This document shows, one piece after another, positions 3,863 to 52,125 of a stretch of DNA of 64,000 nucleotides. The translations under genes were made by a program, and so were the position numbers. The first letter of the stretch is position 1, and each line of letters begins with the position of its first letter. The stretch comes from Akkermansia muciniphila (GTDB lineage: Bacteria > Verrucomicrobiota > Verrucomicrobiia > Limisphaerales > BJHT01): assembly GCA_945861535.1 (NCBI GenBank), contig CAMAUZ010000025.1:23396-87395 (forward strand). Reading direction: 5' to 3'. Below the pieces are notes generated by a model that was given only the letters and a program-made list of their open reading frames with translations, was not told the DNA's origin and searched no databases.

Positions 3863-5101
3863 ATGCAAATGAAACCCGCCCGATTCACCGGCCTCTTGGC
3901 CCTCACCCTCAGCCTCCACACCGCGACCGCCGCCGACTGGCCGCAGTTTCGCGGCCCGCAGCGCGACAACATTTCCCGCGAGACCGGCCTGCTCGCCGAA
4001 TGGCCCAAGGCCGGGCCGACGCTGGCGTGGAAGGCTGACGGTCTGGGCAAGGGTTACTCGAGCGTCGCCGTCGTCGGTGACCGCATCTACACCGCCGGCG
4101 ACGACGCCGACTCGAGTTACATCCGCGCCCTCAACACCGCGGGCAAACACGTCTGGCGGGCGCCCTTGGGCAGACCCGGCGCGCCCGGCGGTTACGACGG
4201 CACCCGCGCGACCCCCACGGTCGATGGTGAACGGGTTTTCATGCTGGGCCAGGCCGGCGATCTCGTCTGTGTGAACGCCGCGACGGGCAAGGAAATCTGG
4301 CGCAAAGATTTGCGGAAAGACTTCGGCGGCCAGGTTGGTGGCTGGGGTTACTCCGAGTCGCCGCTGGTCGATGGCGAGCGCCTGATCATTTCCCCCGGCG
4401 GCAAAGGCGGCACTCTCGCGGCGCTAAACAAGACCACCGGTGCCGTGCTCTGGCGCACGAAGGATTTCACCGACGGCGCGGACTACGTGTCGCCCATTCT
4501 CACCACGATTGGCGGCGTTCCTCAATACGTGCAGCTCACGCAGAAAACCCTTGCTGGTATTGATCCCAAGACTGGGGCCGTCCTCTGGCAGGCCCCGCGC
4601 CGCGGCTCCACGGCGGTCATCCCCACGCCCGTGCAGGCCGATGATTTGATCTTCGTCACCTCGGGTTACGGGGTCGGCTGCAACGCGTTCAAGGTCACGA
4701 AAAGCCCCGGCGGTTTCACGGCGGAAGAGACCTACAACAACAAGAACCTGGCCAATCATCACGGCGGCGTGATCCTGCTCGACGGCTACATCTACGGGCA
4801 TTCGGACTCGAAGGGCTGGGTTTGCATGGACCACAAAACGGGCGACGTGAAATGGTCGAACCCAAGCGTTGGCAAAGGATCCGTTACCTTTGCCGATGGC
4901 CATCTCTATCTGCGCAGCGAAGGCGGGCGCGGCACCGTCGCTCTCGTCGAACCCTCGCCCGCCGCCTACAAGGAAACCGGTCGCTTCGAGCAACCCGACC
5001 GTAGCACCAAGAACAGTTGGGCGCATCCGGTGGTCGCCAACGGGAAGCTCTATCTCCGCGATCAGGGCATTCTGCTCTGCTACGACATCAAGGCCAAATA
5101 G
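3863..5101 (+). CDS. Exported PQQ-like beta-propeller repeat protein
   Basis: The 412-residue product starts with a signal peptide ending near TATAADWPQFRGP. WPQFRGP..DN is the usual opening of the verrucomicrobial/planctomycete PQQ-like (BamB-type) propeller family. Repeated blades contain AATGKEIWRKDL, KTTGAVLWRTKD, PKTGAVLWQAP and HKTGDVKWSN. There is no cytochrome motif and no obvious dehydrogenase metal site, so it is more likely a binding or scaffold propeller than an enzyme. ATG 3863 was chosen because it begins the signal peptide; the ORF track extends upstream through the intergenic region. A strong terminator follows. Confidence 0.9.
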   Translation: MQMKPARFTGLLALTLSLHTATAADWPQFRGPQRDNISRETGLLAEWPKAGPTLAWKADGLGKGYSSVAVVGDRIYTAGDDADSSYIRALNTAGKHVWRAPLGRPGAPGGYDGTRATPTVDGERVFMLGQAGDLVCVNAATGKEIWRKDLRKDFGGQVGGWGYSESPLVDGERLIISPGGKGGTLAALNKTTGAVLWRTKDFTDGADYVSPILTTIGGVPQYVQLTQKTLAGIDPKTGAVLWQAPRRGSTAVIPTPVQADDLIFVTSGYGVGCNAFKVTKSPGGFTAEETYNNKNLANHHGGVILLDGYIYGHSDSKGWVCMDHKTGDVKWSNPSVGKGSVTFADGHLYLRSEGGRGTVALVEPSPAAYKETGRFEQPDRSTKNSWAHPVVANGKLYLRDQGILLCYDIKAK

Positions 5102-5183: not shown

Positions 5184-5248
5184 GCCGAGGAGCCCTTTGC
5201 ACATAGCTGCCGACCTAAGGAGAACCCGCGCCCCAAGAGAAGGCGCAG

Positions 5249-5420
5249 CATGGGGCCATCGCACCTGCGGTGGGCACGGCAAGCGGGCGGGCCGAGGTCG
5301 CGGTGCCGCAGGCGTCTGCCTGCGAGTTTGGGCGGCGTCTCGCCGCCCGTTTTGACTCGGAGCAAGACGCCCCGCGAACTCCCAGGCGAGACGCCTGCGG
5401 TACCGTACGTTGGCAGAACC
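5249..5420. repeat. Palindromic repeat, family A copy 1
   Basis: The core at 5302-5404 starts GTGCCGCAGGCGTC and ends GACGCCTGCGGTACC. Two further mirrored blocks lie inside (GGCGGCGTCTCGCCGCC and GCGAGACGCCCCGCG). The flanks CATGGGGCC and GTACGTTGGC resemble those of copy 4 at 51845-52027. The sequence can fold into a series of nested hairpins. It is not coding. Confidence 0.85.
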
Positions 5421-5550
5421 TGAGCGCCGGGACGCAGCAGCATGGGACCAGCGTACGCAAAAGGCGGAGCGGGAAAGTTGGCCCTGCCCTTTTCCCGGGC
5501 ACTGCGGAAGGGGACCGAGGCCGCGGGGAAAACCCGCGCCAGTTCGTCCG

Positions 5551-5582
5551 CAAAACTTTGTCGCATATGCGACAAAGTTTTG
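5551..5582. promoter_or_regulatory. Perfect 32-bp palindrome
   Basis: CAAAACTTTGTCGCAT is followed directly by its exact reverse complement, with no loop. Unlike the surrounding repeats it is AT-rich, which fits a dimeric protein-binding site better than an RNA hairpin. It lies about 350 bp upstream of purE in a region with no gene. Confidence 0.75.
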
Positions 5583-5933: not shown

Positions 5934-6449
5934 ATGGCCAAGCCAACCAAACCAACCAAGTCCGCCACGCCGCTCGTCGGCATCATCATGGGCAGCCAGT
6001 CCGACTGGGAGACCATGCAACACGCCGCGGCGCAACTGACCGAGTTGGGAGTGCCATTTGAGACCCGCGTCGTCTCGGCACATCGCACGCCCGACCTGCT
6101 GTTCGAATACGCCGCGACCGCGGCGGCGCGCGGACTCGAGGTCATCATCGCCGGAGCGGGCGGGGCGGCGCATCTTCCCGGCATGACGGCCGCGAAAACC
6201 GCGCTGCCCGTGCTGGGCGTGCCCGTCGAGTCCAAAGCCCTCCACGGCCTCGACTCATTGCTCGCGATCGTGCAGATGCCCGGCGGCGTGCCCGTCGGAA
6301 CGCTCGCCATCGGCAAGCCCGGGGCCATCAATGCCGCCCTGCTTGCCAGCACGATCCTTGGCGCAAAATATCCGCAGTTTCGGCGCGCCTATGAAACCTT
6401 CCGCCGTCGGCAGACCGACGCCGTCCTCGCGAACGGCAATCCGGCTTAG
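5934..6449 (+). CDS. purE: N5-carboxyaminoimidazole ribonucleotide mutase PurE
   Basis: 171 residues, the normal length for class I PurE. Conserved landmarks are [13 protein letters not shown] at the phosphate/substrate loop, [19 protein letters not shown] and [12 protein letters not shown]. The enzyme moves the carboxylate of N5-CAIR to give CAIR in purine synthesis. The ATG at 5934 begins a short linker before the first strand; the longer ORF reads through the dispersed CCGTGTCCAT repeat. No purK is adjacent, so the partner gene must lie elsewhere. Confidence 0.96.
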
Positions 6450-44631: not shown

Positions 44632-44685
44632 GGAACTGGCGGCGAGACGCCGCCGGAACTCGCAGGCGGGGACGCCTGCGGTACC
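44632..44685. repeat. Half copy of family A repeat
   Basis: GGAACTGGCGGCGAGACGCC then CGCAGGCGGGGACGCCTGCG to GGTACC matches the right half of the copy at 49907-50010. Immediately downstream (44718-44772) are repeated TCCTGACTCCTGA/TTCTGTCTCCTGA units. Confidence 0.85.
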
Positions 44686-44777
44686 GAGAAAACTTCGCCA
44701 CGGCGCTTCTTTTGATTCTGTCTCCTGACTCCTGATTCCTAACTTCTGTCTCCTGAATTCTGACTCCTGACATCCTT

Positions 44778-48111: not shown

Positions 48112-48474
48112 ATGCCTCCTGTAGCCCTGCAAGCGCATTTCGATGGTGAACGGATCGTCCTCGACGAACCGTTTGACCTGCCCCCGCACGCTCCGTTGAT
48201 CGTGACGGTGTTTCCCCTAACTGCGGAACGAGAGACCGACAGCGAAGAGGCGTGGCTTCACACGGCCGCTGGCAGTGACGCGTTTGCATTCCTCGCCGAC
48301 CCGGCCGAGGACATCTACACGGTCCAAGACGGAGAAGCTTTTCGTGATGCTGTGGAGGCTGCAATACTCCGGCCGTTAGGAGTCCGCACCCTCGCCATCC
48401 CATTGCTGCCGGCTGCGCTTGCTTCCTCGCCTCCCCTTCGTGCCGGAGGCACGCAAGAAATTAGCCGGTGGTGA
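48112..48474 (+). CDS. Antitoxin-like small protein with repeat-derived C-terminus
   Basis: 120 codons. ALQAHFDGERIVLDEPFDLP followed by PHAPLIVTVFPL matches the N-terminal sandwich of small AF2212/DUF104-type antitoxin-like proteins ('..v.A.fdG..I.LdeP..L..n..L.VTvlp'). The middle (EEAWLHTAAGSDAFAFLADPAEDIYTVQDGEAF) fits too. The last residues ([11 protein letters not shown]) and the TGA stop are encoded by the left arm of a family B inverted repeat. The original end was therefore probably replaced by element insertion. No toxin gene follows. Confidence 0.6.
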   Translation: MPPVALQAHFDGERIVLDEPFDLPPHAPLIVTVFPLTAERETDSEEAWLHTAAGSDAFAFLADPAEDIYTVQDGEAFRDAVEAAILRPLGVRTLAIPLLPAALASSPPLRAGGTQEISRW

Positions 48475-48772
48475 AGCGCAGCGGAACCACCGGGATAACC
48501 GTGTCGAAGAGCGCTGCGCCCCGGCGGGGCGCGAGAGCCGTGAATCCCGCCGACACGCGTCGCCATGGCGATGCCGCGTCATGGGCGGACCTCCCGGTCG
48601 CCTGGCAATTTGGTGGACGCGGGCCGACCGAGAGACCGCGCGACGGAGCAAACGTCGCTGAGGTTCCCCGACTCTCGCGCCCCGCCGGGGCGAAGGGTTC
48701 GGTGGGGGTGGGAAGTCCGGTGGTTCCGCTGCGCTTCACCACCGGCTAATTTCTTGCGTGCCTCCGGCACGA
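48438..48772. repeat. Long inverted repeat with perfect 56-bp arms, family B
   Basis: The left arm 48438-48493 (TCGTGCCGGAGGCACGCAAG...) and right arm 48717-48772 (...TTGCGTGCCTCCGGCACGA) are exact reverse complements over 56 bp. Inside, CGCCCCGGCGGGGCGCGAGA and TCTCGCGCCCCGCCGGGGCG form a second inverted pair. The roughly 125-bp centre has no ORF worth calling. It resembles a MITE-like or REP-type composite element. Confidence 0.95.
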
Positions 48773-49800: not shown

Positions 49801-49906
49801 GCCGCGCTTCCCGGCCCTCCTGCGCGTCTGGAATCGGCGGCGGGAAGTATCCGCAAGCCCTGCTTGCAGCCGACGACGTGAGGAGGCGAATCGGGCTTGG
49901 AAAATC

Positions 49907-50010
49907 GTACCGCAGGCGTCCTCGCCTGCGAGTTCGCGGGGCGTCTCGCCCCGAGTTGCTTCTGGCGGCGAGACGCCGCCGGAACTCGCAGGCGGGGACG
50001 CCTGCGGTAC
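49907..50010. repeat. Palindromic repeat, family A copy 3
   Basis: GTACCGCAGGCGTCCTCGCC to GGCGGGGACGCCTGCGGTAC, 104 bp. The inner mirrored blocks are GGGGCGTCTCGCCCC and GGCGGCGAGACGCCGCC. Confidence 0.92.
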
Positions 50011-50090
50011 GCGGAGCGCGGGCATCCCGCCCGCAGCGGCAACTGCGCTCCGGGGCCGTAATGGGTTTACCAACGCCCACGCACGCACGG

Positions 50091-50204
50091 GGCCGCGCTC
50101 CGCAGGGGGTAGGGCGCGTCTGTCTTCAGCGCGCCGGTTGCGCGTCCGCACGTCCCGCGGCGCGCTGGGGACAGACGCGCCCTACCTCTCGCGGAGCCGT
50201 ACCA
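50091..50204. repeat. Inverted repeat, family K
   Basis: GGTAGGGCGCGTCTGTCTTC is mirrored by GGGACAGACGCGCCCTACC, with CAGCGCGCC/GGCGCGCTG inside and GCGCTCCGC/GCGGAGCC outside. It is the third palindrome in a row between the SDR and CoA-transferase genes. Confidence 0.88.
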
Positions 50205-51801: not shown

Positions 51802-51844
51802 TGCGCGTAGCCGCTGTGACTGGAACCCGGGCACCGAAACAGCG

Positions 51845-52027
51845 CAGCACGGGGCCAACGTACCTGCGCGGTGCTCGGAGCGGGGGCGGTCGAGGTCGGG
51901 GTACCGCAGGCGTCCTCGCCTGCGAGTTCGGGCGGCGTCTCGCCGCCCGTACCGACTCGGGGCGAGACGCCCCGCGAACCCGCAGGCGAGACGCCTGCGG
52001 TACCCTGACGCAACCGTACGTTGCCAG
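51845..52027. repeat. Palindromic repeat, family A copy 4
   Basis: Core 51901-52003: GTACCGCAGGCGTCCTCGCC to GGCGAGACGCCTGCGGTAC, with GGGCGGCGTCTCGCCGCCC in the left half and GGGGCGAGACGCCCC in the right half. The outer flanks GGCCAACGTAC and GTACGTTGCC are also mirrored. It lies between the CoA-transferase and thiolase genes. Confidence 0.92.
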
Positions 52028-52125
52028 GCGGGGGCGGAGGCGTCCGGTCAGCGCCCGATCCGCCTCCTCACGTCGGCGGCTACGCGTCCGGCGGCACCAT
52101 TAGTTTTGAAAGAATTATTTGCACC

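Follow-up and report, generated by a model that had tools for sequence, protein, structure and literature searches.

The 64,000-nucleotide stretch of DNA analysed here, referred to as the window, carries a perfect 32-bp palindrome (PAL). PAL is probably a solo, REP-like member of a hitherto undescribed family of mobile elements that are bounded by palindromes and built on a Cas2-type protein, comparable to the REP/RAYT systems. To our knowledge, a PaaX/Cas2-type protein has no precedent in a mobile element or REP system, and our search of open-access full text returned no description relevant to PaaX in combination with Cas2, palindromes or Verrucomicrobia. If the assignment is true, REP-like repeats have at least two origins, each with a different, unrelated enzyme, one branch of the PaaX family is an enzyme and not a regulator, and the database label 'PaaX regulator' is probably misleading for this branch. 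The element would also offer a Cas2 relative that exists outside CRISPR and is linked to palindromic repeats, for comparison with Cas1-Cas2.

The palindrome in the window

The full sequence of PAL is CAAAACTTTGTCGCATATGCGACAAAGTTTTG, composed of the arms CAAAACTTTGTCGCAT and ATGCGACAAAGTTTTG, and the symmetry ends at 32 bp as the bordering g and t are unpaired. The perfect palindrome described in the initial annotation was confirmed at exactly the coordinates claimed and lay far above chance, the arithmetical expectation being about 1.5 × 10^-5 perfect 32-bp palindromes per 64-kb window. The GC content (37.5%) is below that of its region, and as a single strand PAL folded much more stably than shuffled versions of itself (z -6.5). 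PAL is intergenic. The gene of a PQQ-repeat protein ends about 450 bp before it (stop at 5101), and a purE-like gene starts about 350 bp beyond it (ATG at 5935). The features of this locus are as follows.

5551..5582, no strand assigned: perfect palindrome (PAL), 32 bp, probably a solo copy of the REP-like repeat
5407..5540, minus strand: conserved arm of a dispersed repeat of about 250 bp (right flank in the repeat orientation), 68-71% identity over 140 columns to L002 and L014
5584..5643, minus strand: second arm of this dispersed repeat (its left flank when the repeat is oriented as such), 77% identity over 60 bp to L006

The window's genome (G000, 7.94 Mb in 169 contigs) contained 27 copies of PAL at up to 3 mismatches, of which nine were exact, and the reversed PAL used as a control gave no match in this genome at the same threshold. 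Most of the copies sit inside the dispersed repeat of about 250 bp and have common flanks. The palindrome had originally been proposed as a stand-alone operator for a dimeric protein, with a genome-wide count of matches as the check; the count of 27 copies, mostly inside a longer dispersed repeat, identified it as a repeat, and the operator reading failed. The other part of the proposal, recognition by a symmetric DNA-binding protein, was supported indirectly, since PAL is much more strongly conserved than the flanking DNA (pairwise identity among 19 copies of 95.6% in PAL and 58-60% in the adjoining 60-70 bp), remains symmetric in its variant forms, and brackets a PaaX/Cas2-like gene in related genomes. 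Dimer formation is known for both the PaaX and Cas2 families.

A single gene between two palindromes

The palindrome recurs elsewhere in the order, in some cases with paired changes in its two arms (CCAAAC...GTTTGG in G026 and TTGCA...TGCAA in G029). Three genomes (G026, G101 and G202) each have two PALs about 861 bp apart, centre to centre, around a gene, forming a unit of about 0.9 kb in which a single gene encoding about 261 aa is placed between two PALs. The PAL of the window matches exactly both terminal palindromes of the gene element in G202 (L080). Relatives of the gene were present in 53 of the 320 genomes of the order, and also in named assemblies of Pedosphaera-type, Opitutaceae, Akkermansiaceae and Kiritimatiellae bacteria. 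Neither the palindrome nor the protein was found in the phage and viral collections, and plasmids contained only distant ordinary PaaX. As the gene copies within G026 have diverged from each other (73-83% identity), bursts of self-copying were not seen. The genes are under purifying selection, with dN/dS values of 0.07-0.24.

The best palindrome within about 110 bp on each side of the gene was scored at 80 Verrucomicrobiota loci and compared with control stretches. The median best score was 13 on the upstream as well as the downstream side. The controls had a median of 4, and their 99th percentile (7) was exceeded at 73% of the loci upstream and 76% downstream. Left and right palindromes were 88% identical in the 53 elements having both; between elements at 30-60% protein identity, palindrome likeness was only 0.43-0.50. 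Palindrome similarity also tracked protein similarity (Mantel rho 0.48, 0 of 999 permutations). The centre of the left palindrome lies at a near-constant distance of about 53 bp before the start codon, and the second, matching palindrome follows just after the stop codon. Between elements of different genomes, DNA homology is mostly confined to the interval bounded by about -70, relative to the start codon, and about +42, relative to the stop codon, these limits being the outer edges of the palindromes. At a matching locus in G202 and G204, where both genomes have the element, both palindromes differ in concert (GCATATGC vs CCACGTGG), each being symmetric. No clean empty site for the gene-bearing unit was found when the joined flanks were compared among the loci examined, and the outer flanks showed symmetry and no direct duplication of the target-site type. 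In one element (L082), an IS630-like transposase gene (1709-2926) has inserted immediately beyond the left palindrome; the shift beside the palindrome between L082 and L085 corresponds to this insertion and was set aside as uninformative on the palindromes.

The protein matched PaaX_M (Cas2-like, PF20803, 66.9 bits) and PaaX_C (PF08223, 24.7 bits) of Pfam, both over the cut-off. These were the only Pfam domains to pass it, with no HUH domain and no match in the N-terminal part, the place of the winged-helix DNA-binding domain in PaaX repressors. The scores for the PaaX equivalog TIGR02277 (63.4, cut-off 264.55) and for the Cas2 model TIGR01573 (21.8, cut-off 24.5) were below the respective thresholds. 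An AlphaFold2 model of fair quality (pLDDT 79; N-terminus poor, with residues 15-38 below 50) was compared by Foldseek, which retrieved E. coli PaaX (8a39, E 2.6e-8) and Rv0674 (3kfw), followed by Cas2 proteins. The Cas2-like (ferredoxin-like) domain retains the FDxP motif where its first strand ends, and D99 is invariant in 70 of 70 proteins of the family. The protein is a member of the PaaX fold family, outside the PaaX repressor equivalog and distinct from canonical Cas2. It shares PaaX_M, PaaX_C and the overall fold with the regulators represented by 8a39 and 3kfw, but the regulators lack Asp at position 99, which is E, Y and Y in the PaaX of E. coli and of the Actinomycetota Rhodococcus and Pseudarthrobacter, respectively, and Rv0674 is also without the Cas2-type aspartate. 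Moreover, no long flanking palindromes were present at the three PaaX genes checked in these bacteria (E. coli, Rhodococcus and Pseudarthrobacter). With Cas2 it shares the Cas2-like central domain and the strand-1 aspartate of FDxP, but it is a larger protein with extra domains, is encoded in single-gene units and scored below the cut-off of the Cas2 model.

A PaaX-like transcription factor that autoregulates via the upstream palindrome, with the scattered palindromes as its regulon, is a rather unlikely explanation for these elements. It agrees with the closest solved structures, which are PaaX-family proteins annotated as regulators, with the fixed spacing of the left palindrome from the start codon, which suits autoregulation, and with the conservation of the palindrome far above that of its flanks. 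However, it does not explain the second palindrome past the stop codon, the sharp ends of homology at both outer palindromes, or the doublets around unrelated spacers and the palindromes around non-coding DNA described below, which points away from a function as operator only. The position of the window copy relative to the purE-like start codon, the persistence of 27 near-perfect sites in a genome where the gene was not found, and the three PaaX genes having no such palindromes also argue against it. Autoregulation through the upstream palindrome may nevertheless coexist with mobility of the unit.

Palindromes without the gene and their possible spread

G138 contains 36 palindromes matching its element. 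Most of the copies read are single and located in unrelated flanks, while two loci share a common non-coding unit in which about 285 bp lie between two PALs. The 4-5 bases adjoining PAL in G138 show symmetry, with a sequence that varies between sites (flank symmetry 0.90, 0.90, 0.75, 0.70 and 0.50; control 0.25-0.48), which suggests insertion into small dyads or hairpin-templated extension. The outer-flank symmetry of the gene-bearing units, unlike the clear case of G138, was no greater than the extended symmetry of the palindromes themselves. In Opitutaceae, palindromes with an entirely different sequence were found in 13-27 copies in two of the genomes searched, frequently arranged as doublets, and Akkermansiaceae-type genomes contained further palindrome types. 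In G326 (L285-L291) and G329 (L297-L300), doublets of a 38-bp palindrome surround unrelated spacers, mostly of 28-42 bp, and only 0.04 close pairs were expected by chance in G326. The doublets have CRISPR-like spacing without arrays and occur at many loci.

A PAL-bounded segment of about 230 bp is present in L101 and L103 and absent from L102 and L109 at the matching locus. As L101 pairs by similarity with L102, and L103 with L109, the simplest account is two separate losses, each leaving one PAL; ordinary recombination between the repeats would suffice.

In the mobile-element reading, which we consider probable, the PaaX-family protein, probably as a dimer, would recognise its own palindrome and would nick or join DNA at this site. 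Full units, shorter units with two PALs and single palindromes would spread, putatively by transposition, and the segment between two PALs could be lost to leave one PAL. In the REP/RAYT systems (TnpA-REP, REPtrons) and REPINs, the RAYT protein is a transposase of the Y1 HUH type, and a GTAG foot is present in one large class of REPs (PMC3733652, PMC3116915, PMC8266576). The present family resembles them in its short palindromes occurring in many copies, singly or as doublets, in a cognate gene that is usually low-copy and bracketed by the same palindromes (about 75% of the 80 loci vs 1% of controls), and in the co-variation of palindrome and protein. It differs from them in that the protein is PaaX/Cas2-like with no HUH domain matched, and in that the palindromes are near-perfect over 32-40 bp with no GTAG/CGTC foot seen by inspection of the aligned copies. 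Like an insertion sequence or MITE, the family forms discrete units at unrelated loci, including the same non-coding unit at two G138 loci. Some G138 copies are centred in symmetric flanks, as if inserted into dyads, in the manner of the IS1272 group targeting inverted repeats; unlike this group, no such transposase is present and the elements end in complete palindromes (PMC5678879).

The units with two PALs may alternatively be products of a CRISPR-free adaptation, in which the Cas2-type protein would insert DNA at a palindrome and thereby duplicate the palindrome, the inserted DNA being either the gene of the protein itself, a short non-coding unit or fragments of 28-42 bp. The palindromic repeats of about 38 bp around unique spacers of about 40 bp in some genomes are reminiscent of CRISPR-Cas, but at most two repeats are close together and long arrays are not formed. 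We give this possibility a small chance; if true, the family would be a surviving relative of the process by which Cas2 joined a DNA integrase.

Association with the gene and the dispersed repeat of the window's genome

When the palindromes were counted per genome by the pattern TTTGTNNCANNTGNNACAAA, the gene was present in 18 of the 23 genomes with at least three palindromes and in 35 of the 297 others (p = 1e-11, counting genomes as independent and ignoring kinship). The highest number by a strict pattern was 42, in G043. No gene was detected in G071, G081, G207 and G042 despite at least three palindromes in each, including 28 palindromes of the type TTTGTCCCAGGTGGGACAAA in G081. The gene was also not detected in the window's genome, where the query P0001 gave no match. 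The sole match to PF20803 in this genome was a CRISPR-type Cas2 at L223 (G000:C40:14784-14912), and this weak PaaX_M match was therefore rejected as the element gene. The palindromes of G000 are near-perfect although the gene was undetected, and several are close to contig ends; they may be relics or may be served by an unassembled gene.

The palindromes found without the gene in G000, G081 and G207 would fit autonomous REP-like hairpins acting in nucleoid organisation, termination or mRNA stability, with the gene flanked by coincidence or targeting them for insertion. The location of PAL inside an older dispersed repeat in G000, and the variation of the palindrome at one position of one repeat at several loci, are also in line with this explanation. 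It is nonetheless very unlikely, as palindromes diverge in step with the proteins throughout the phylum, palindrome and gene strongly co-occur, and both ends of one element change together.

In most G000 copies of the dispersed repeat, one conserved flank is about 110 bp long and the other at least 160 bp, while four PALs (L012, L018, L019 and L026) lie in unrelated flanking sequence. At the equivalent repeat position, contig C47 of G000 has a different palindrome, TGCAACCTTTTGTCGCATACGCGACAAAAGGTTGCA, and the sister species G001 has yet other ones. These different palindromes at one repeat position, together with the contrast in conservation between PAL and its flanks, indicated that PAL is an independent module, which is conserved or renewed apart from its surroundings. 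It is thus highly improbable that PAL is merely the best-conserved stretch of an ordinary repeat of about 250 bp in one genome: the common flanks of most copies suit this idea, but the four copies in unrelated flanks, the recurrence of the palindrome with unrelated flanks in other families of the order, and the sharp fall of conservation at the PAL edges do not.

A copy of the dispersed repeat in G202:C236 (L253) has the rarer CGCATATGCG, and its sister copies in the same genome have CCCACGTGGG; the palindrome of L253 seems to have been replaced as a unit. A repeat copy on contig C4 of G000 that seemed to lack PAL was considered as an empty site and rejected, most of PAL being deleted there between two TTTGTCG repeats. 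GC-rich pieces of the dispersed repeat ('family A') occur without PAL in the window at 5204-5264, 44634-44686, 48445-48765, 49906-50186 and 51823-52094, and such GC-rich repeats flank PAL elsewhere. Rfam at loose thresholds returned only sub-threshold matches, mostly microRNA-type noise. The end of an IS21-like element, with repeats of CCAGTTTTGATCGCA, is located 6 bp from PAL in two contigs of G000 and inside a palindrome in a third (starts of C56, C103 and C93; loci L037, L036 and L195), which suggests that the IS21-like element favours palindromes as its target.
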